Assembly (NCBI GenBank): GCA_023664105.1
Contig: JAMPGF010000004.1
Coordinates: 1 to 37,951 of the forward strand
DNA: 37,951 nt
From: Butyricicoccus sp.
GTDB taxonomy: Bacteria; Bacillota; Clostridia; Oscillospirales; Oscillospiraceae
Direction of reading: 5' to 3'
The notes beneath the pieces were generated by a model. It worked only from the letters and a program-made list of their open reading frames with translations, did not search any database and had not been told where the DNA came from. Below are positions 7,586 to 28,353 of this stretch, piece after piece; the first letter of the stretch is position 1; every line of letters starts with the position of its first letter. A program made the position numbers and the translations under genes.

Positions 7586-9064
7586 TCACCCGTTGAGCGC
7601 GGCGAACACGCCCTTGAGCGCGGGATACAGCATGCGGTACTGCTCATAGCGCTTTTCGTACAGCGCGGCAAGCTCCGGCTCGGGCTCCACGGTCTGGGCC
7701 GTGCGCACAAGCGCCTTACAGGCGTCCGCCACCGTGGGGTACGCCCCGCAGGCGACCATCGCCAGCATCGCGCCGCCCATTCCGGGGCCCTGCTCGGACT
7801 CCGGGATGTCGAGCGAGATATTGAGCACGTTGACGAAAATTCTCCGCCAAAGCGGGCTTTTCGCCCCGCCTCCGCAAATCTTGCTCCGGCTTATTTCAAT
7901 GCCCAGCGCCCTGGCGACCTCAATGCTGTCGCGTATGGCGAAGGCCACACCCTCGAGCACCGCAAGCAGCATATCCGCGCGGGAGCTGTCCAAGCTCAGG
8001 CCAGTGAAGGTGCCGCGGGCATTGGTGTCGTTAATGGGCGAGCGCTCACCCATGAGGTAGGGCAGGAAAAACACGCGGTTTTTCCCCAGCTTATCCTCCG
8101 AAATCTCCGCCTGCGCCCCGGCGTAATCCTCCGTGCGCAGGATATCGTCCATCAGCCACTTGTTGCAGCTGGCGGCGGAGAGCATACAGCCCATGAGGTG
8201 GTATTTCCCGTCCGCGTGGGCAAATGCGTGCAGTCCGTTGCTGGAGTCCACGCCGAAGCTCTCGCTGGAGATGAACACGGTGCCGGAGGTGCCAAGCGAG
8301 ATGTTGCACTCACCCTCGCCCACCGTCCCGGTACCCACGGCGGCGGCGGCGTTGTCCCCAGCCCCGGCGCAGACCTTCACGTTTTCCGGCAGCCCCAGCT
8401 CGCGGGCAAGCTCCGGCTTGAGGGTGCCGACGGCCTCGTAGCTTTCAAACAGACGCGGCATCTGCTCCTCGCTAACGCCGCAGATGTCCAGCATCTCCTT
8501 CGACCAGCACCTGTGCTCCACGTCCAGCAGCAGCATACCGCTGGCATCGGAGTAGTCTGTGCAGTGCACGCCGGTGAGGACATAGTTTATGTAGTCCTTG
8601 GGCAGCATTATCTTGTCAATGCGCGCGAACAGCTCCGGCTCGTTTTCCCGCAGCCAAAGAAGCTTCGGCGCGGTAAAGCCGGCGAAGGCGATATTCGCGG
8701 TGTACTTTGACAGCTTATCGCGTCCCACCGTCTCGTTGAGGTAGTCCACCTGCTTTGCGGTGCGCCCGTCGTTCCAGAGGATGGCCGGGCGGATAACATT
8801 GTCCTCAGCGTCCAGCACCACGAGCCCGTGCATCTGTCCGCCGGCGCCGATGCCAGCGACCTCGGCGGCGTCAAAGCCGCCGAGCAGCCGGGGTATGCCC
8901 TCGAGCACCGCTTTTTTCCAGTCCTCTGGGTTCTGCTGGCTCCAGCCCGGCTGGGGGAATTCCAGCGGGTATTCCAGCGAGACGATGTTTTTTATATCTC
9001 CCTGCCCGTCCATGAGCAGAAGCTTCACGGCGGAGGTACCAAGGTCGATACCAATATACAGCAT
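7586..9064 (-). CDS. xylB: Xylulokinase-like FGGY sugar kinase
   Basis: The 492-residue protein starts MLYIGIDLGTSAVKLLLMDG, the phosphate-1 motif of the ASKHA/FGGY kinases. It continues with the substrate segment GQMHGLV and ILWNDGRT, a phosphate-2/adenosine region (GAGDNAAAAVGTG), LGTSGT, and ICGGGAKSPLWRRI near the C-terminus. This pattern fits xylulokinases, which phosphorylate D-xylulose to xylulose 5-phosphate with ATP in the cytoplasm. The start is ATG 9064 after GAGGAAG; a longer frame opening at 9124 has no ribosome site and overlaps the permease. It follows the permease gene by 10 bp. Related FGGY kinases take other ketoses, so the exact sugar is inferred. Confidence 0.85.
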   Translation of the reverse strand: MLYIGIDLGTSAVKLLLMDGQGDIKNIVSLEYPLEFPQPGWSQQNPEDWKKAVLEGIPRLLGGFDAAEVAGIGAGGQMHGLVVLDAEDNVIRPAILWNDGRTAKQVDYLNETVGRDKLSKYTANIAFAGFTAPKLLWLRENEPELFARIDKIMLPKDYINYVLTGVHCTDYSDASGMLLLDVEHRCWSKEMLDICGVSEEQMPRLFESYEAVGTLKPELARELGLPENVKVCAGAGDNAAAAVGTGTVGEGECNISLGTSGTVFISSESFGVDSSNGLHAFAHADGKYHLMGCMLSAASCNKWLMDDILRTEDYAGAQAEISEDKLGKNRVFFLPYLMGERSPINDTNARGTFTGLSLDSSRADMLLAVLEGVAFAIRDSIEVARALGIEISRSKICGGGAKSPLWRRIFVNVLNISLDIPESEQGPGMGGAMLAMVACGAYPTVADACKALVRTAQTVEPEPELAALYEKRYEQYRMLYPALKGVFAALNG

Positions 9065-9074
9065 AAGCTTCCTC

Positions 9075-10253
9075 TTACTTCTTTCCGGACTTGCGGCTGG
9101 TGACCACGTCGAAGATGACGGCAATCAGCAGAACTCCGCCCTTGATAACATACTGCCAGGCGTCGCCAAGGCCCATGATAGACATGCCCATGTTGATAAC
9201 GCCCAGGAGCATAGCGCCGATGACGACGCCGCCGACGGTGCCGCTTCCGCCGTAAGCGGAGGCGCCGCCGATGAAGCAGGAGCCGATGGCGTCCATCTCA
9301 AAGGAGGTGCCGGTGGAGCCGTTGACGGAGCCGACGCGGGCGGTGCACAGCAGGCCGCACAGGCCGGCCAGCAGGCCCATGTTGGCGTAGGCGATAAAGT
9401 AGATCTTGTCGGTGTTGATACCGGAGAGCTTGGTCGCCTTCTCGTTGCCGCCGACAGCGTAGAAGTAACGGCCGAAGGCGGTCTTGGAGGTGATGAAGTT
9501 GTAGATAAGGCAGATAGCCACGACCCAGACGAGCATGACGGAGATGCCGCGGTACCGGCTGAGCATCCAGCTGTACCAGATTATCAGGGCGGCGATGATG
9601 ACGGCCTTGGCAAAATCACTCACGGCGCTGTTCTGGCGGTAGCCCTTTCTGGCCCTGTCGCGGCGGTTTTTCACGGTGCTGATAATAACCAGAACCGCGG
9701 CGATGATGCCCACGATGAGAGCCGAGAGCTTGAGGTCCCCGTCGTCAAGTCCGGGGATTTTAATGTAAGCGGTGAAGATGTTCAGGAAGGTGGGGTCCTG
9801 AACGGCGACAGTCTTGCTGTTGAGCACGAAACGGCCCAGGCCGCGGAAGATGAACATGCCGCCCAGGGTGGTGATGAAGGGCGGGATGCGCACATAGCCT
9901 ATCCAGTAGCCCTGCCACACGCCTACCAGCAGGCCGATCACAAGGCAGATAAGAATGGCGGGAATGGCCGGCAGGCCCATGTTGGAGATCATGACCGCCG
10001 CCAGGCCGCCGACGAGGCAGACCACGGAACCGACGGACAGGTCGATGTTGCCGCCGGTGAGTATGCACAGCAGCATGCCGCAGGCCATGACCAGAACGTA
10101 GCCGTTCTGAAGCAGCAGGTTGGTCATGTTCTGGGCGGAGAGCAGGACTCCCTTGGTCAGCACGGAGAACAGAGCAAATACGATCACCAGGGCAATTACC
10201 ATGGCGTATTTGGTCAAAAACTTTACCAGATTGAATTCTTTCTTCTCAGTCAT
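9075..10253 (-). CDS. Monosaccharide ABC transporter permease (XylH/MmsB-like)
   Basis: The 392-residue protein has about ten hydrophobic segments and the RbsC/XylH-family pattern GYVLVMACGMLLCILTGGNIDLS near residue 50, IPPFITTLGGMFIFRGLGR near 120, and the C-terminal GGASAYGGSGTVGGVVIGAMLLGVINMGM. It forms the membrane pore for sugar uptake with the ATPase and binding protein encoded just upstream. The size of about 390 residues, longer than RbsC, is typical of xylose or multiple-monosaccharide transporters (XylH, MmsB, GguB). The start has GGAGGG with seven bases of spacing. It lies between the ATPase (16 bp upstream) and the kinase (10 bp downstream). Confidence 0.9.
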   Translation of the reverse strand: MTEKKEFNLVKFLTKYAMVIALVIVFALFSVLTKGVLLSAQNMTNLLLQNGYVLVMACGMLLCILTGGNIDLSVGSVVCLVGGLAAVMISNMGLPAIPAILICLVIGLLVGVWQGYWIGYVRIPPFITTLGGMFIFRGLGRFVLNSKTVAVQDPTFLNIFTAYIKIPGLDDGDLKLSALIVGIIAAVLVIISTVKNRRDRARKGYRQNSAVSDFAKAVIIAALIIWYSWMLSRYRGISVMLVWVVAICLIYNFITSKTAFGRYFYAVGGNEKATKLSGINTDKIYFIAYANMGLLAGLCGLLCTARVGSVNGSTGTSFEMDAIGSCFIGGASAYGGSGTVGGVVIGAMLLGVINMGMSIMGLGDAWQYVIKGGVLLIAVIFDVVTSRKSGKK

Positions 10254-10269
10254 ATTGTTACCCTCCTTT

Positions 10270-11814
10270 TTACGCCTTTGCGGTGTCCCGGATGATGTAG
10301 CCCATGATGCTCTCCTGAGTGGCGTCCTTGGCGTCCAGCTCGGCGAGCAGGCGGCCCTCGTTCATCACGTAGATGCGGTCGCACATGCCCAGCAGCTCAG
10401 GCATCTCGGAAGAAATCATCATAACGGACTTGCCCTGGGCCACCATCTGGTTGATGAGGCAGTAGATTTCATATTTCGCGCCCACGTCGATGCCGCGGGT
10501 GGGCTCATCCATGATAAGGATATCCGGCTCGGTGAACATCCACTTGCCCAGCAGGGCCTTTTGCTGGTTGCCGCCGGACAGGTTGCCCACATCCTGCTCG
10601 ATGGTGGGGGTCTTGGTGCCCATTTCCTTTGTCATCTGCTCGGCCACGCCGACCTCCTGGTCGCGGTCAATAACCCCCACGCCCTTGCACACCTTATCCA
10701 GACGCGCAAGCGTGGTGTTGAAGCGTATCGACTCGTCAAGTATCAGGCCGTTAGTCTTGCGGTCCTCGGTGACATAGGCCAGACGGCGGTGGATGGCCTC
10801 CTGCGGGGAGCGCAGCTCGACCTTCTCCCCTCCGATGTACAGCTCGCCGCTGATGTTCGTGCCGTAGCTCCTGCCGAAGATGGACATGGCCAGCTCCGTG
10901 CGCCCCGCGCCCTGAAGGCCCGAGAAACCGACGACCTCGCCCTTGTGGATATTGAAGGAGATGTTGTCGTCCACTACCCTCTCCTGGTACAGCGGGTGGT
11001 GCACCGTCCAGTTTTTGACCTCGAGGTTTATCTCCGGCTGGACATTGTGCTCGCGGCTGGGATAGCGGTCCTCCATGGAGCGGCCGACCATGCCCTTTAT
11101 GATGCGGTCCTCGCTGAACTCATCCACGCCCTTGACCAGCGTCTCAATGGTTGAGCCGTCGCGGATAATCGTGGCCTTGTCGGCGCAGTAGATTATCTCG
11201 TTGAGCTTGTGGGTAATGATGATGGAGGTGAGGCCCTCCTTCTTGAACTCCATCAGCAGATCCAGCAGCATCTTGGCGTCCTCGTCGTTGAGCGAGGAGG
11301 TGGGTTCGTCCAAAATAAGCAGCTTGACCTTCTTGGAAAAGGCCTTGGCTATCTCAACGAGCTGCTGCTTGCCGGTGCCGATGTCCTTGACGAGGGTCTG
11401 GGCCGACTCGTTGAGCCCGACCTGGCGCATGTGGCGCTCGGCCTCGCCGTAGGTCCTGTCCCAGTCTATGTAGCCCATCTTGTTCTTTATCTCATTTCCC
11501 AGGAACATGTTCTCGCCTATGGACAGCAGGGGGATAAGCGCCAGCTCCTGGTGGATGATGACAATGCCGAGGGCCTCGCTGTCCTTCTGGGTCTTGAACT
11601 GGCACAGCTTGCCCTCGTAATAGATATCGCCGGTGTAGGTGCCGGCGGGGTAGGTGCCCGAGAGCACGTTCATCAGGGTGGATTTACCCGCCCCGTTCTC
11701 GCCGATCAGGGCGTGGATTTCCCCGGCCTCAACCTTCAGATTGACGTTATCCAAGGCCTTGACGCCGGGAAACTCCTTGGTGATTGACTTCATTTCCAAA
11801 ATCGTACTTGCCAA
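10270..11814 (-). CDS. Monosaccharide ABC transporter ATP-binding protein (two NBDs)
   Basis: The 514-residue protein has two ABC ATPase domains in tandem, as in RbsA, XylG and MmsA. The first has Walker [10 protein letters not shown] (about 38-46), signature-like [13 protein letters not shown] and Walker [12 protein letters not shown]. The second has the degenerate P-loop GLQGAGRTE typical of the family, signature LSGGNQQK and Walker [13 protein letters not shown]. It powers sugar uptake by the adjacent permease. It begins with TTG, eight bases after AAGGAGG. Between it and the upstream binding-protein gene lies a strong hairpin that probably lowers its expression relative to the binding protein. 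Confidence 0.93.
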
Positions 11815-11845
11815 GCGGTGTTCCTCCTTCCGAACTAAAAATAAA

Positions 11846-11873
11846 GGAGGGCGGGGCGAATGCCCCGCCCTCC
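11846..11873 (-). terminator. Intra-operon attenuating hairpin
   Basis: GGAGGGCGGGGC pairs perfectly with GCCCCGCCCTCC around a four-base loop. On the minus strand it is followed by TTTATTTTT. It stands between the binding-protein stop (11900) and the ATPase start (11814), the usual position of a partial terminator or RNA-stabilising stem that gives excess binding protein. Confidence 0.8.
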
Positions 11874-11899
11874 GGTTATGCTATGAGGGATTTGCCAAA

Positions 11900-13108
11900 T
11901 CAGCCGTTGGTGGGCTTGAGATAGCCGTCGTCGCCCACGGTGTAGTAGCCGGGAGTGACCAGCTTGGCCTCCATGTTGTCAGCGGTGACAACATCGGGAA
12001 CCAGCAGGAAGGACGGGCACTTGTTGCCGGCGGAGGTCTCATAGGACTCTGTGTCGTAGGCGCAGTCGAAGCCCCAGCCGGAGGCGGAGATCAGGCTCTC
12101 GCCGATGTCGGCACCGTCAAGGATGGCCTTGGCCAGGTCAAGGGTGACGACGGCCTCGTTGGCCACGGCCTTGTAAACGGTCATGGACTGGATGCCGTCC
12201 TTGATGTTGCGCAGGTTGGCCTCGTCGCCGTCCTGGCCGGTGGTGATGACGGTGTTGCCGCCGGTATAGTCAGCAGTAATAGCCTGGGTCACGCCCATGG
12301 AGGTGGAGTCATTGGAGCACAGCCAGGCATCCAGCGTAGTGCCGTCGGAGTAGTAGGAGGCCAGGACGGTCTGGGCGCGGTCGAGCGCCACATCGGTCTG
12401 CCACTGGTCGGTAGCGACCTGCTCGAACTTGGTCTGGCCGGAGGGGACGATGACCTTGCCGCTGTCTATGTAGGGCTTGATAACGTCCATGGCGCCGTTG
12501 AAGAAGTAGCCGGCGTTGTTGTCAGCGGGGTCGCCCGCGGTGAACTCCATGTTGAAGGGGCCGGCGGCGTTGTCCAGATCCAGCGCGTCGCGCACGAACT
12601 CGCCCTGGAGCTTGCCGACGGTGTAGTTGTCGAAGGAGACGTAGTAGGAGGTGTTGTCGTTCATGATCAGGCGGTCATAGGCGATGACAGGGACGCCCTG
12701 GGAGCCCGCGTCATTCATGACGGTGTTCAGTCCGGCGCCGTCGATGGCGGCGATGATGAGCAGATCCACGCCCTGGGAGAGCATGTTCTGGATGTCGTTG
12801 ACCTGCTGCTCGTTCTTGTTGTCGGAATAGGTCACGATGGTGTTGTAGCCGGCGGCCTTGAACTGCTCGTCAAGGTAAGCGCCGTCGCGGTTCCAGCGCT
12901 CGAGGGACTTGGTGGGCATCGCGATGCCGACGGTCTTGGCGCCGTCAGCGGGGGTGGAGCTGTTGTCAGCCGGTGCGGCGGAAGAGCTGTTGTCCGCGGG
13001 CGCGGTGGAAGAGCTGTTGTCAGCCGGGGTGGTGCTGCTGCTGTCGCCGCATGCGGCAAGGCACAGGCACATGCAAAGCGCGAGGATCAGTGCAAGGACT
13101 TTTTTCAT
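11900..13108 (-). CDS. Sugar-binding lipoprotein of the ABC transporter (ChvE/XylF-like)
   Basis: The 402-residue precursor starts with a lipoprotein signal (MKKVLALILALCMCLCLAAC, Cys20 as lipid anchor). A low-complexity linker of about 35 residues follows, built from repeats of S-S-S-T/A-x-P-A-D-N. The mature part (from about 58) is a periplasmic-binding type 1 fold: KTVGIAMPTKSLERWNRDG, LLIIAAIDGAGLN, VPVIAYDRLIMN, NNAGYFFNGAMDVI and TGQDGDEANLRNIKDG, close to xylose or multiple-sugar binding proteins. It captures sugar outside the membrane. It is the first gene of the operon, behind a sigma-A promoter and a 20-bp palindrome, and probably repressed by the divergent ROK protein. Confidence 0.92.
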   Translation of the reverse strand: MKKVLALILALCMCLCLAACGDSSSTTPADNSSSTAPADNSSSAAPADNSSTPADGAKTVGIAMPTKSLERWNRDGAYLDEQFKAAGYNTIVTYSDNKNEQQVNDIQNMLSQGVDLLIIAAIDGAGLNTVMNDAGSQGVPVIAYDRLIMNDNTSYYVSFDNYTVGKLQGEFVRDALDLDNAAGPFNMEFTAGDPADNNAGYFFNGAMDVIKPYIDSGKVIVPSGQTKFEQVATDQWQTDVALDRAQTVLASYYSDGTTLDAWLCSNDSTSMGVTQAITADYTGGNTVITTGQDGDEANLRNIKDGIQSMTVYKAVANEAVVTLDLAKAILDGADIGESLISASGWGFDCAYDTESYETSAGNKCPSFLLVPDVVTADNMEAKLVTPGYYTVGDDGYLKPTNG

Positions 13109-21839: not shown

Positions 21840-22586
21840 ATGCCGACACGCGCGCAGCTCAAGCAAAGCGCCAAAAACGCCATGCGCAATACCAAGCCGA
21901 GCGTGATGCTCATAGCGCTGGTTTATCTCATCATTATTTACGTTCTGGAGCTCCTCGAGTACAAGGTCATGTTCCCCGGGATGAGCCTTTACCGCATCTA
22001 CATGACGATTCTCGACGGCGGGCTTCCTCCCATGAACACCGGCGCGGCGAGCCAGCTCATCCGGCTGGCAATCCAGGTGATGGGCACGATGCTCGGCATT
22101 GGCATAACCTCGGTTTGCCTGAACGTCAGCCGTTTCAGGAGCGTCGACTTCGGCAGCCTGTTTGATCCCTTCGCCATGTTTTTCAAGCTTCTGTGGCTGG
22201 ACATTCTCATGGGGATTTACGTTATGCTGTGGTCGCTGCTGTTCGTCATCCCCGGCATAATCGCCAGCTACCGCTACAGCATGGCGGTTTATATCATGCT
22301 GGACAATCCCGAGTACTCCGCCTCTGAGTGCATCCGCCGCAGCAAGGAGATGATGGACGGTAAGAAACTTGACCTGTTCGTCCTTCAGCTGAGCTTCATC
22401 GGCTGGCAGCTTTTGACCATAATCCCCTTCGTGGGCATATACGTCCTGCCCTACGCGCAGACGACCTACGCCAATTTTTACAACGCCCTTTCCGGCTACA
22501 TCCCCGAGGCGGACTACACCGTCCACGGCGACAACGGCCCATACAACGGCGGTGGCTGGGACAACGGTAAAGACCCGTGGGACTAA
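21840..22586 (+). CDS. DUF975 family membrane protein
   Basis: The 248-residue protein begins MPTRAQLKQSAKNAMR, the DUF975 start pattern (K-x-x-A-K-x-x-L/M), and has about five hydrophobic segments including VMLIALVYLIIIYVLELL, LLWLDILMGIYVMLWSLLFVIPGIIASYRYSMAVYIM and FIGWQLLTIIPFVGIYVLPYAQTTYANFYN. The loop NPEYSASECIRRSKEMMDGKKLDLF is diagnostic of the family. The function is unknown. The tail (PYNGGGWDNGKDPWD) is soluble. Its TAA stop is the outermost part of the adjoining repeat (TAATACTAA), so the repeat touches the last codon. ATG 21840 fits AAGGAGG spacing better than GTG 21834. Confidence 0.88.
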   Translation: MPTRAQLKQSAKNAMRNTKPSVMLIALVYLIIIYVLELLEYKVMFPGMSLYRIYMTILDGGLPPMNTGAASQLIRLAIQVMGTMLGIGITSVCLNVSRFRSVDFGSLFDPFAMFFKLLWLDILMGIYVMLWSLLFVIPGIIASYRYSMAVYIMLDNPEYSASECIRRSKEMMDGKKLDLFVLQLSFIGWQLLTIIPFVGIYVLPYAQTTYANFYNALSGYIPEADYTVHGDNGPYNGGGWDNGKDPWD

Positions 22587-22730
22587 TACTAATTCTCGAT
22601 TGAAAGTTCAATCGAGAATTCCGCGTGCTGCGCACGCTCGCGCCGCGCAAAGCGCGTCGCGCCGTCTCATTAAAACCCTGATAAAAAAGCTCTTGGAGCT
22701 TTTTATCAGGGTTTTTATCAGGGTTTAGTA
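22587..22730 (-). repeat. Three-hairpin interspersed repeat, copy 2 (inverted, 144 bp)
   Basis: Reverse complement of copy 1 (107-237), with the same TACTAA/TTAGTA ends and the same order of stems. It is 13 bp longer because the left arm unit ACCCTGATAAAA is tandemly duplicated and a T run has one extra base. Remaining differences are few. It directly follows the DUF975 stop codon. With copy 1 it forms a 22-kb inverted pair. Confidence 0.88.
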
Positions 22731-23732: not shown

Positions 23733-24578
23733 TCAGGCACGGCCTGTCGACCCGAAAAGCTCCATTTTGTTCCGGACCACCCGCTTCATGGCCTCGATCT
23801 CATAGGGAATCAGCCCCATCATGGTCTTAGCGCCGGCGGTAAGGCCTTCCTCGATCCCTGCCTTGCCGGCCTTGTCGAGGTCGGTAAAAATATTCACCTT
23901 GCAGACGCCCTTTTGCACGGCGGTCCGGAAATCGTCATCCGCCAGCCCGCTGCCGCCGTGGAGCACAAGCGGCAGCTGCGTGCGCGCGGCGATTGTCTCA
24001 ATGCGCTCAAAGTCCAGCTTTGGCGGGAACTTATAGTCGCCGTGGGCGTTACCGGCCGCCACAGCCAAAGCGTCTATTCCGGTGCGGGAAACGAAGTCAG
24101 CCGCCGTGTCCGGGTCCGTGAAGTAATCGCTTGGGTTTTCCAGCCGGCCCTTACCCTCGTTGTCGCCGACGTGTCCCAGCTCGCCCTCCACTGTCGCGCC
24201 CATGGCGCGGCAGATTTTTACCATCTCCGCCATCCGGGCGGCATTTTCCTCGTATTCAGCGGTGGAGCAGTCATACATGACGGAGGTAAAGCCCAGCTTC
24301 AGGGCCTCCATACACCTGTCAAACGTCAGGCCGTGGTCGTAGTGGACACAGACTGGGACCGCCGCCTTCTCCGCCATTGGGATCAGGTACTCCGCCACCC
24401 GCTCCAGTGACATCGCCGGCAGCAGTATCTCCGCCGTGCCGATCATGACCGGCGCGCGCAGCTCCTCCGCGGTCTCGATCACCGCGCGGGCCATCTCCAC
24501 GTTGACGGCGTTGAAGAAGCCCACGCCGTATCCCGCTTCCTTCGCCGGAAGCAGTATGTCGTTCATGTTTACCAGCAT
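23733..24578 (-). CDS. Class II fructose/tagatose-bisphosphate aldolase family
   Basis: The 281-residue protein is a class II (zinc) ketose-bisphosphate aldolase. It shows GVGFFNAVNVEMARAVI at 18-34, the catalytic Asp81 with zinc ligand His82 (VHYDHG), Glu134 in VEGELGHVG, His179 (GNAHGDY, where most members have TSHG), His207 in LHGGSGL and the phosphate-binding VNIFTD. It cleaves a ketose phosphate to dihydroxyacetone phosphate and an aldehyde. It is the last gene of an isomerase-kinase-aldolase operon, so the substrate is probably the ketose phosphate produced by the kinase. The ribosome site GAGGTG overlaps the kinase stop. Confidence 0.9.
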   Translation of the reverse strand: MLVNMNDILLPAKEAGYGVGFFNAVNVEMARAVIETAEELRAPVMIGTAEILLPAMSLERVAEYLIPMAEKAAVPVCVHYDHGLTFDRCMEALKLGFTSVMYDCSTAEYEENAARMAEMVKICRAMGATVEGELGHVGDNEGKGRLENPSDYFTDPDTAADFVSRTGIDALAVAAGNAHGDYKFPPKLDFERIETIAARTQLPLVLHGGSGLADDDFRTAVQKGVCKVNIFTDLDKAGKAGIEEGLTAGAKTMMGLIPYEIEAMKRVVRNKMELFGSTGRA

Positions 24579-24582
24579 TTTT

Positions 24583-25695
24583 TCACCTCATAGCTTCCCA
24601 TCCGGCGTTTATGCGCGCTTCCAGCTCTTCGAGCGGCTTCAGGCCGCTGAGGGCGTCATATGCCGTGACGCTGCACGCGCCCTCAGCGGCGGCAAGCGCC
24701 GCGCACTCCCGTGGCGGTTTCCCCCGCAGCACCGCCGCGAGGAAGGCCGCGATGCTCGCGTCACCCGCTCCGGTGGCCGAACGCACGATGTCAGCCTTAA
24801 AGCTGGGCTGAACGCCCTCCTGATTGGCCCACAGCTCCGCGTCCAGGCCCAGGCGGGAGCCGGCGCGCTCCATCTCCGCGCGGCTTGCCGTGCGGTAATA
24901 CATCCCCGCCGTGCCGCACTTTATCAGTACTGCCCTGCCGCCGCGCTCCATAAGGCTGTCCGCCAGCGGCTTTGCCTCCGAGGCCATATCCAGCCCCCGC
25001 GTCATGTCTCCGCCTTTCGCTGCAAGACGCTCGTACCGCCCGCGGTCGAGCATGAAGCACAGCTCCTCAAAGCTGGGGACGAAGAAGTCGACCCAGGGCA
25101 ATACGCTGTCAATAATAGCGCCCCAGTCCGCCCGCCCCGCCTCCGAATTGGGGTCAACGGCGGCAAAGTCAAGGCTTGTGGCAATCCCCTTTTCCTTCAT
25201 GCGCCGGAATATGGCGGTCAGCTCCGCGCCGCCGTCCTGATACATTTTCTTCATCAGCGGCGGATATCCGAAGTGAAACAGGGCCGCATCCGTCAGCGCC
25301 GCGTCCGGAATATCCCGGTTGGAAAAGGTGTCGTTTGCGCCGGGGTTATGCAGAAAGATACGGTCAATACCCGGGATAGCCAAAACAACGGAATATGACG
25401 TCGAGCTCTCCGCATCCGCCAGCAGGCCTCCGGCACCGTGCTGCTCCAAAAGCCGCGACAGCAGCGCGCCGAAGGCGTCCGCGCCCGCCTTTCCCATGAG
25501 TGTGACGTCAACGCCCAGCTTCTTCAGCGCAAGGCCGGTGTTTGCAACGCTCCCGCCGGTGTGTACGTCGGCCTGCTCCACATTCAGCAGCTTCCCCGGC
25601 TCGAGCAGCTCGCCCACACGGGAGTATGTCCGGCTGTGGGGTATCACGGGGGTGATGTCCAGGCAGATGTGCCCGGCCGCTATCACCTTTTTCAT
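24583..25695 (-). CDS. PfkB-family sugar kinase
   Basis: The 370-residue protein has both PfkB/ribokinase signatures: GGSVANTGLALKKLG (47-61) near the N-terminus and SATGAGDASIAAFLAA near residue 306-321, with Asp312 as catalytic base. It transfers phosphate from ATP to a sugar or sugar phosphate. It is longer than ribokinase (about 310); the extra residues are in the middle (about 205-290). Its ATG overlaps the TGA stop of the isomerase gene by one base, and the aldolase begins 4 bp after its stop, so the three are tightly coupled. It probably phosphorylates the ketose made by the isomerase. Confidence 0.9.
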   Translation of the reverse strand: MKKVIAAGHICLDITPVIPHSRTYSRVGELLEPGKLLNVEQADVHTGGSVANTGLALKKLGVDVTLMGKAGADAFGALLSRLLEQHGAGGLLADAESSTSYSVVLAIPGIDRIFLHNPGANDTFSNRDIPDAALTDAALFHFGYPPLMKKMYQDGGAELTAIFRRMKEKGIATSLDFAAVDPNSEAGRADWGAIIDSVLPWVDFFVPSFEELCFMLDRGRYERLAAKGGDMTRGLDMASEAKPLADSLMERGGRAVLIKCGTAGMYYRTASRAEMERAGSRLGLDAELWANQEGVQPSFKADIVRSATGAGDASIAAFLAAVLRGKPPRECAALAAAEGACSVTAYDALSGLKPLEELEARINAGWEAMR

Positions 25696-26729
25696 CAGTC
25701 GATACCCATGATGAGGTTCATCACGTACATCTCAAGCTGCTCAAGCTTGCGCTCGGCGATGAGCTTATTGGCGTAGTCGTAGTCGTATTTCGCCACCTTC
25801 GCCTCCAGCGCCTTGAACACGTTGAGGCTGTTGCGCAGATGCTCATAGCTGTCCTCGTCGGAGGTGGTGCGCATGGCCTTGACATCCAGACCGACGTACT
25901 CGCCCTTCGAGCCGTAGTTGTTCTCAACCAGCACCTTAACCTGGTTGAAGGCCGCGCGAAGGTTCTCGACACCGAAGGACTTGTCCTGGTCATAACGGAT
26001 ACCGTTCTGATCGTTCAGGTGCACGGTGAACAGCTTGTCGAATGCCAGCGCGAAGCCGATCTCATTGGCCGGGTCCAGTCCGGCCAGAATGGCGTGAGCG
26101 GATTCAAGGTTGCCGCCGACACGCTTGGGGTCAATTGTAGCCGCGGAGACGGCCATCACATGCCCCATGGTGCCGCAGATTGAGCGGTCAATGGGCTCGT
26201 TGGGCTTCGGCTCGATGCACACGCGGATTTTATCGTCGTAGCTGAGCATCTTGTTTATGGCCTCGACAAGCTGCTTCGTGGCCCAGACGGGGCTCTTGCT
26301 CTCGGCGCAGAGGGTACCCTCGCGCGCAAGCCAGAGCACTATCATGTCTCAGCCCAGCTCGTTTGCGATGTCGATGGAGCGGTAGGCGCGCCACATGGCA
26401 AACTCGCGGTCGGCTTCGCAGGTGCTCATAAAGCCGCCGTCCCTGGTGCGGCCGTCCATCCACAGGCGCGGGGCAACAAACTCAGCCTTCAGGCCGTACT
26501 TATCCAGCAGCTTCTTCACGCCGCGGGCATGCTCCCTGATCTCCTCCTCGGTCATGTTGTTCATGTCGGGCACCGCGTCGTCGTCGTGGAACTGGACGGC
26601 GGAGAAGCCCAGCTCGGCGAACCTGGCAAATTTGCTTTCAAGATCAATGGGCTGACGGGTTTCCGGGCCGTAGGAATCCGCGCCGGTATGTACGTTCCAG
26701 GGGCCCACGGAAAATTTGAAGTTTGACAT
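25695..26729 (-). CDS. TIM-barrel sugar isomerase (xylose isomerase-like) with in-frame TGA
   Basis: Two open segments in the same frame (126 and 217 codons) are separated by one TGA at 26349-26351. Joined they give 344 residues, a plausible full length. The N-terminal part (FKFSVGPWNVHTGADSYGP, FAELGFSAVQFHDDDAVP) and the C-terminal part (IVLWLAREGT, IEPKPNEP, GGNLESAHAILAGLDPA, FTVHLNDQNG, GEYVGLDVKAMR) carry the barrel strands and metal ligands of xylose-isomerase-like enzymes. No frameshift or other damage is seen. The TGA falls between ELG and DMIVLW. It may be a recent nonsense mutation, a sequencing error, or a selenocysteine codon; a GC-rich stem-loop follows it. First gene of the isomerase-kinase-aldolase operon, with AAAGGAGAAACTGCC before ATG 26729. 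Confidence 0.75.
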
Positions 26730-26854: not shown

Positions 26855-26884
26855 TTGCTTTTTGTTCCCCGGCCGTGCTATAAT
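26855..26884 (+). promoter_or_regulatory. Sigma-A promoter of the divergent AraC gene
   Basis: TTGCTT (26855-26860), 18-bp spacer, TATAAT (26879-26884). Transcription would begin near 26891, only about 24 bases before the first family-like residues of the AraC protein. Confidence 0.65.
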
Positions 26885-26914
26885 TTTAAGAAAAATGTTT
26901 GGGGGGGCTGCACT

Positions 26915-27901
26915 ACGGCAAAGGAATATGAGGTCGTTTCCCATCCTCACCTGAATCACATCAACGCGTTTCTCGTCCGCATGGTAGAGCGTTCAACCCA
27001 CATCCACCGTGACCTGGAGCTTGGCATGGTTCTGGAGGGCTCTATCACATTGAAAATGAATCGCGGTTCATACCTGTTGGAAGAAAAAGACATTTATTTG
27101 GTTAATCCGATGGAATCCCACGAGCTTATATCGGACGGACACGGTGCGTTATTGCTGGCCATACAATTATCGCCCCTGCTGACTGAGCCTGTCTTTCCGG
27201 ACGCACCCAATATCCGCTACTTAGGCAGCGCCAATCTGCGTGAGTGTTTTCAGAAGCTTCCGCAGCGCTATACGATCCTGAGTGCGCTCTGTGTAGAATT
27301 GGCCTGCAGCTATTTGGAGCGCCGATCAAATTATGAATTTAAGTGCTTCAGCCTCGCCGCAACACTATTCCACTTGCTGCACGCATCAATTTCCTGGGAA
27401 GTTATGAGCAGAGAGGATTATCTGCCTATGAAGCACCGGACAGACCGTATTCTCTCTATTACGGATTACATTGAGCAAAACTTTCAGCGCAAACTGCTGC
27501 TGAATGATATTGCCAGGAGGGAAAAGCTTTCGCTGACCTACCTTTCCCACTTTTTCAAAGACGCGCTGGGGATGACATTTCAGGAATACCTGAATCAAAA
27601 GCGGTTTGAGTATGCCTGTCATCTCCTGGCAACTACAGACCGAAAAATTCTGGATATCAGCCTGAACAGCGGTTTTTCCGATGTGCGTTACTTTAATCAG
27701 GCGTTTCAGAAGCAATTCGGCTGCACGCCAAGAGATTACCGTCGCGGGAAAAGCGGCGTATTTCTAAAGCTTCGCGTGCTGACCGGCACGACACAATACT
27801 TTTTTGCACCAGAAGATGCCCGGCTATTACTGGCTTCGCCACGGCAGAGCCTGTGGGTACAATTAAAGAACGATTCATTGTCCTGTTTTTTTGAGGAATA
27901 A
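26915..27901 (+). CDS. AraC-family regulator with cupin domain; non-standard start
   Basis: The protein of about 328 residues has an N-terminal AraC-ligand cupin (LVRMVERSTHIHRDLELGMVLEGSITLKMN ... DIYLVNPMESHEL) and a C-terminal pair of helix-turn-helix units (ITDYIEQNFQRKLLLNDIARREKLSLTYLSHFFKDALGMTFQEYLNQKRF; ILDISLNSGFSDVRYFNQAFQKQFGCTPRDYRR). It probably activates the divergent isomerase operon in response to a sugar. No ATG, GTG or TTG is in frame between the promoter and the conserved KEYEVVSHPH segment. The only candidate with a purine-rich ribosome site (GGGGGGG, seven bases before) is ACG at 26915. The ATG at 26855 lies in the promoter. A tail of about 50 residues after the second helix-turn-helix is unusual. 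Confidence 0.85.
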   Translation, partial: TAKEYEVVSHPHLNHINAFLVRMVERSTHIHRDLELGMVLEGSITLKMNRGSYLLEEKDIYLVNPMESHELISDGHGALLLAIQLSPLLTEPVFPDAPNIRYLGSANLRECFQKLPQRYTILSALCVELACSYLERRSNYEFKCFSLAATLFHLLHASISWEVMSREDYLPMKHRTDRILSITDYIEQNFQRKLLLNDIARREKLSLTYLSHFFKDALGMTFQEYLNQKRFEYACHLLATTDRKILDISLNSGFSDVRYFNQAFQKQFGCTPRDYRRGKSGVFLKLRVLTGTTQYFFAPEDARLLLASPRQSLWVQLKNDSLSCFFEE

Positions 27902-28012: not shown

Positions 28013-28269
28013 ATGCAGTACACAAAATTGGGCAATTCAGAATTAAGAGCTTATCCCGAAATCAGGCTTGTGCAGATCGCGCAGCAGATATTGTGCCGGG
28101 CAAGGCGATTTGGCGCAGGAAGGCTTTGTGCCTTTCAAGCCAAAGCAGCGCCGCACAGCGGAAAATATGCAGGCAGGATGTGCGCGGATAATCTCGGGAT
28201 ATGTTCTAAATGTTTCCCGCATCTGCCTTGGCTGTATGGGCTTCGGGGATGCCGCGAAAGGCCAGCAGC
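28013..28269 (+). pseudogene. Aldo/keto reductase remnant interrupted by a MITE
   Basis: The first 11 codons read MQYTKLGNSEL. After a 160-bp insertion (28047-28206) the frame resumes as NVSRICLGCMGFGDAAKGQ, the typical N-terminus of a large aldo/keto reductase family. Removing the element and one copy of the TAA duplication restores the frame exactly. After about 30 residues the gene ends at the partial three-hairpin repeat at 28266-28309, so more than 90 percent of the gene is gone. It lies just after the AraC gene and was probably its neighbour. Not functional. Confidence 0.85.
28047..28206. mobile_element. MITE-like element, 160 bp, with TAA target duplication
   Basis: The ends are imperfect 16-bp inverted repeats: GAGCTTATCCCGAAAT at the left and, read inward from the right, GAACATATCCCGAGAT (13 of 16 match). 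Both flanks are TAA (28044-28046 and 28207-28209), a 3-bp target duplication within an aldo/keto reductase reading frame. The interior has no transposase. Several frames are open through it by chance. It must be moved by a transposase encoded elsewhere. Confidence 0.82.
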
Positions 28270-28309
28270 ATGCGGAATTCTCGATTGAACTTTCAATCGA
28301 GAATTAGTA
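28266..28309 (+). repeat. Right-end fragment of the three-hairpin repeat (copy 3)
   Basis: From the GC-stem edge (CAGCATGCGG) onward the sequence matches copies 1 and 2 through the right stem AATTCTCGATTGA/TCAATCGAGAATT to TTAGTA, followed by TTA as in the others. The left two thirds are missing, and the break point joins the aldo/keto reductase remnant. Confidence 0.85.
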
Positions 28310-28353
28310 TTAGACTTTTTTCGCGGCGTGCGCGCAGCGAACAGCTGTGCATC

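Follow-up and report, generated by a model that had tools for sequence, protein, structure and literature searches.

An in-frame TGA within a xylose-isomerase-like gene of Butyricicoccus sp. is probably a recent nonsense mutation rather than a selenocysteine codon

A single in-frame TGA inside an otherwise intact bacterial gene can signal either a selenocysteine codon or the loss of the gene product, and a sugar isomerase gene of Butyricicoccus sp., a gut-type member of the Clostridia, poses exactly this question. The gene lies in a 37,951-nt stretch of DNA (hereafter, the window), which is contig C132 of a 2.02-Mb draft assembly (187 contigs; completeness 89.8%, contamination 1.2%). Read on the minus strand from 26729 to 25695, its frame runs M...NELG-TGA-DMIVLWLAREGT...MNLIMGID-TGA, with the internal TGA flanked by two open reading frames in the same frame, of 126 codons (26349-26729) and 216 codons (25695-26345). 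An earlier note, based on the letters of the window, had described a lone TGA after ELG with both halves undamaged and in frame, and had seen no other inactivation; translation and alignment to homologues bear out both descriptions, since no frameshift, indel, or further stop was found in the isomerase frame. Of the two explanations offered at that stage, recoding or a very recent mutation, the latter fits all the evidence presented below, while recoding as selenocysteine is contradicted by the missing machinery.

Table 1 Features of the isomerase locus (positions in the window).
Feature	Position	Strand	Remark
Xylose-isomerase-like TIM-barrel gene	25695..26729	-	344 codons; one in-frame TGA inside
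Internal in-frame TGA, codon 127	26349..26351	-	Sole internal stop; no stop in 83 homologues
ATG two codons past the TGA	26343..26345	-	Candidate start for re-initiation, giving the C-terminal 216 codons
Hairpin 3' of the TGA	26298..26338	-	Judged fortuitous; overlaps codons of the conserved WLAREGTLCAES motif
Normal TGA stop of the isomerase	25695..25697	-	Conserved C-terminus; overlaps the kinase ATG (TGATG)
PfkB-type sugar kinase, intact	24583..25695	-	Next operon gene; 63-72% identical neighbours in homologous loci
Class II ketose-bisphosphate aldolase, intact	23733..24578	-	Third operon gene; TIGR00167 248 bits, cut-off 215.6
AraC-family regulator, divergent	26855..27901	+	ORF sequence; homologue beside the isomerase in 50/82 homologous loci

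The identity of the gene is clear at the level of fold. It matches PF01261 (E 8.6e-22; 78.5 bits, above the gathering cut-off of 31.1), aligns to xylose isomerases in the PDB (E about 1e-44), and has 80 homologues that are 76-90% identical across its full length, with residues 1-343 of the 344-residue translation free of indels relative to homologues of 90% identity. In alignment A1, row L010 shows the wrong strand and is disregarded. Its score against TIGR02631 (xylA_Arthro), 194 bits, falls below the curated cut-off of 447. With a score so far under the xylose isomerase family cut-off, the gene is called xylose-isomerase-like here. It heads a conserved isomerase-kinase-aldolase operon (Table 1): 35 of 82 homologous loci have all four of regulator, isomerase, kinase, and aldolase, and others have part of the set, in some cases because the contig ends; aldolase counterparts in these loci reach 84% identity. 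The isomerase is single-copy, and no second intact copy was found elsewhere in the host genome. Further along the window, a xylulokinase (XylB, 560 bits) and a sugar ABC transporter cluster lie at 7586-13108, with no isomerase seen beside them.

Searches of plasmid DNA and an Rfam scan of the whole window returned no match. Mis-binning of the contig was considered and rejected, because many other contigs of the genome carry copies, at 81-98% identity, of 50-172-nt repeats from the window, and the congeners carry less similar ones; these shared repeats place the contig in the bin. Repeats carrying the palindrome AATTCTCGATTGAACTTTCAATCGAGAATT, REP- or MITE-like in character, lie at 137-240, 22584-22687, and 28265-28316 and are present on many host contigs. 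One of them is found at an apparent aldo/keto reductase gene start at 28013-28316 (MQYTKLGNSEL...VSRICLGCMGFGDAAKGQ; a weak assignment, E 0.03), which is interrupted by a repeat of ~172 nt (28040-28211) and cut short by the palindromic repeat (28265-28316). Copies of the 172-nt repeat are 81-91% identical on other host contigs and more diverged in congeners. The apparent breakage of this reductase-like start by a repeat indicates that gene decay does occur in the region.

TGA is evidently used as a stop in this genome. It terminates 7 of 15 genes in the window, and the isomerase's own normal end is a TGA (Table 1), so the codon functions as a stop here. A genetic code in which TGA is sense (e.g., table 4) was rejected on the same count, together with the finding that in the host genome Trp is read by a CCA anticodon only. 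Among the tRNA loci scanned, ARAGORN identified no UCA anticodon (two weak or truncated tRNA-like matches aside).

We looked for selA, selB, selC, and selD, a check that the earlier note had proposed, and only selD was found in the host genome (89.8% complete). SelA was detected neither there nor in two congeners. SelB was likewise missing above cut-off from all three, the matches being EF-Tu and other GTPases (best host match, an EF-Tu-like protein of 405 aa, under the cut-off). For tRNA-Sec, no host match exceeded the cut-off, the best at 43 bits being a tRNA-Ser, and the two congeners lacked it too. The positive control performed as expected, with scores of 66-76 bits in 7/7 tested SelA-positive relatives, and the cut-off was reached by none of 8 others. 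We estimate the chance of missing selA in all three drafts through incompleteness alone at about 0.10 x 0.13 x 0.29 = 0.4%. Because SelA is present in just 17 of 61 sampled genomes of the same family, the cooS gene, read in the earlier note as a hint of selenium use, carries little weight.

The SelD of the host has a Cys-type active-site motif (SCAGCGAK) and adjoins YqeB (359 bits, cut-off 220) and YqeC (146, cut-off 73), in a locus that also holds XdhC-like, YedE, and SsnA proteins. This selenium-cofactor locus (L111:6935-18390, contig C187 of the host genome) comprises XdhC-like, YqeC, YqeB, Cys-type SelD, YedE, a cysteine desulfurase/selenocysteine-lyase-like protein, a permease, and SsnA, with SelD and YqeB overlapping tail to tail. 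In the family sample, 9 of 25 full SelDs have an in-frame TGA (Sec-type; e.g., L112, L114, and L115); all nine belong to SelA-positive genomes, and the host SelD and the others are without internal stop. In orphan-selD genomes with selenium-dependent molybdenum hydroxylases, selD invariably lies near TIGR03309 (PMC2276186). SelD can thus be present without Sec decoding, since the selenium-cofactor trait needs no UGA decoding, and gene content points to selenium being used in the host most likely as a cofactor. Cys-to-Sec changes are possible only where the Sec-decoding trait already exists, and Sec-decoding bacteria without FdhA all have a Sec-containing SelD (PMC1794560).

Downstream of the TGA, the pairing described in the earlier note is present: GAGG (26321..26318) and CCTC (26313..26310) enclose a GTAC loop (26317..26314) that begins 31 nt past the TGA, within a longer imperfect stem of about 26338..26298. 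Under loose SECIS rules, with which we approximated the published consensus (at least 4 bp of stem; a 3-14 nt loop with G at an early position; a distance of 16-37 nt from the TGA), a qualifying hairpin follows 4489 of 6422 codon positions (70%) in 15 genes of the window; the figure for the isomerase itself is 200 of 320. One also occurs at the same place in 65 of 82 homologues, all without a TGA. The folding energy is nothing unusual against dinucleotide shuffles (z = -1.05). By strength the fold does rank in the top 5% among 60-nt stretches in genes of the window, and it is only moderately stronger than synonymous-codon resamples, 1.4% of which reach its energy (1.9% when GC-matched; p about 0.014-0.019, for a test picked post hoc). 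Codon 186 of the isomerase has a stronger fold, and Rfam gave no match at the hairpin site. The signal is weak and post hoc, and we treat the hairpin as fortuitous.

The residue replaced by the TGA is variable among relatives. Across 83 homologues (60-90% identical), the codon-127 column holds 47 Cys (57%), 31 Thr, and 5 Ala, and no stop. Whether Cys occupies this position, a check proposed in the earlier note, thus has a mixed answer: it often does, with Thr and Ala also accepted. The Cys count passes the selenoprotein filter of >50% Cys/TGA at the aligned position (PMC1088965), but the occurrence of Thr and Ala argues against a redox residue. In a class-wide sample of 391 genomes, no other isomerase homologue had an internal TGA; one homologue flagged with a single internal TAA (G255) was set aside as not comparable, its aligned region (residues 4-342) being stop-free. 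On a tree built without the codon-127 column, Cys and Thr replace each other repeatedly, and parsimony assigns Thr to the nearest node, with poor support. The predicted model puts residue 127 between a helix (105-125) and a strand (129-133), that is, at the N-terminal end of beta-4; solved xylose isomerases have Ala at the aligned position. TIM-barrel active sites lie at the C-terminal ends of the strands. Residue 127 would thus lie on the non-catalytic side of strand 4, remote from the C-terminal face that carries the active site, and we regard it as a small structural residue and no redox centre.

Both halves of the isomerase are under strong purifying selection. For the 216 codons 3' of the TGA, dN is about 0.05-0.09 against a near-saturated dS, and wherever a position is conserved in at least 95% of 80 homologues, the window protein is unchanged. 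Since neither half has decayed, the stop must be very recent, polymorphic, or an assembly error. Taken by itself, this sequence conservation would fit read-through and a very young mutation equally well.

Taken together, these results point to a very recent single-base nonsense mutation in the only isomerase copy, with TGA acting as a stop, as the probable explanation. That the codon is a stop and not selenocysteine follows from the absence of selenocysteine machinery, named in the earlier note as a refutation of recoding and established as far as a draft 89.8% complete allows. The main competitor, possible but clearly less probable, is that a one-base error of sequencing, assembly, or strain mixing produced the TGA in a metagenome-assembled genome, with the living population carrying a sense codon and a normal isomerase. 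The perfect conservation of the rest of the gene, the unbroken state of the remaining operon genes, the fragmentation of the draft into 187 contigs, and the prevalence among homologues of Cys codons, one base from TGA, are all in keeping with such an error, whereas the nearby reductase-like gene appears truly broken. Consensus errors in short-read assemblies are also rare per base, and few of them create stops. Nonsense mutations, for their part, are common in bacterial genomes. Because of this, and of the other broken gene nearby, we favour a real mutation and infer that the TGA base is about twice as likely to be genuine as to be an assembly error.

By comparison, it is extremely improbable that Cys has changed to Sec here, with UGA decoded as selenocysteine and the hairpin serving as its SECIS element. 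The predominance of Cys in homologues, the G-containing loop at a suitable place, the hairpin's moderate excess over synonymous resampling, selection on the codons past the TGA, and the presence of SelD would all agree with it, but SelA, SelB, and tRNA-Sec were not found in the host and two congeners although positive controls worked, and the host SelD is Cys-type, which conflicts with the Sec-containing SelD of all Sec decoders without FdhA (PMC1794560), if FdhA is absent here. Nor does it sit well with a predicted non-catalytic residue that tolerates Thr and Ala, a TGA common to no homologue, and a hairpin of a kind that follows most codons. Only marginally less improbable is read-through or bypass without Sec machinery, by a near-cognate or suppressor tRNA or by re-initiation yielding a two-piece enzyme. 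The conserved downstream codons and the ATG close behind the stop (26345..26343) would suit it; however, no UCA-anticodon tRNA was found, and this ATG is unconserved (Leu often stands here in homologues) and has no clear Shine-Dalgarno sequence. A two-piece enzyme would moreover have barrel strands 1-3 and 4-8 on separate chains according to the predicted model, and no split homologue was seen among the homologues or in the class-wide sample. Overall, we see a very slim chance that codon 127 is nonetheless translated, whether through an unrecognised read-through mechanism or as Sec, with selABC lying in the tenth of the genome that the draft lacks.

Under the favoured nonsense mutation, a one-base change would have created the TGA at codon 127, and translation would end after the first three barrel strands, probably leaving no active isomerase. 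As the kinase start overlaps the normal isomerase stop, the kinase is probably translated less well too. If the TGA is real, one sugar-use pathway would have been lost in one strain or species; if codon 127 were translated instead, this would be the first sugar isomerase with the xylose isomerase fold to depend on selenium or on read-through. The main value of the locus is as a warning: a single TGA that aligns with a column rich in Cys and is followed by a hairpin mimics a selenoprotein and even passes simple Cys/TGA and hairpin filters, in a genome that has selD. The case is decided only by the lack of selA, selB, and selC and by the cofactor-type selD locus.

Compared with known systems, the window isomerase shares with actinobacterial-type XylA (TIGR02631; PF01261) the TIM-barrel fold, full-length alignment, and the conserved FHDDD and EPKPNEP motifs, but it has 344 residues versus about 388, and its partners are a PfkB kinase and a ketose-bisphosphate aldolase where that of XylA is xylulokinase. 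It resembles bacterial selenoproteins with Cys homologues (Sec/Cys pairs) in its downstream hairpin and in a TGA that stands opposite Cys in slightly more than half of its homologues, and differs from them in the absence of SelA, SelB, and tRNA-Sec, in a non-catalytic site that takes Thr or Ala, and in having no other TGA-containing member. The host selD, beside yqeB (TIGR03309), yqeC (TIGR03172), and genes for XdhC-like, YedE, and SsnA proteins, corresponds to the orphan-selD trait of selenium-dependent molybdenum hydroxylases (PMC2276186, PMC2432076), and its locus lies apart from that of the isomerase. It is also like nonsense-mutated bacterial (pseudo)genes, in which a single internal stop is the sole damage, other species have intact homologues, and machinery to decode the codon is lacking, all as observed here. 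The isomerase departs from the typical case in showing no secondary decay yet, and its stop is therefore either very young or an artefact; in kind, it is an ordinary premature stop.
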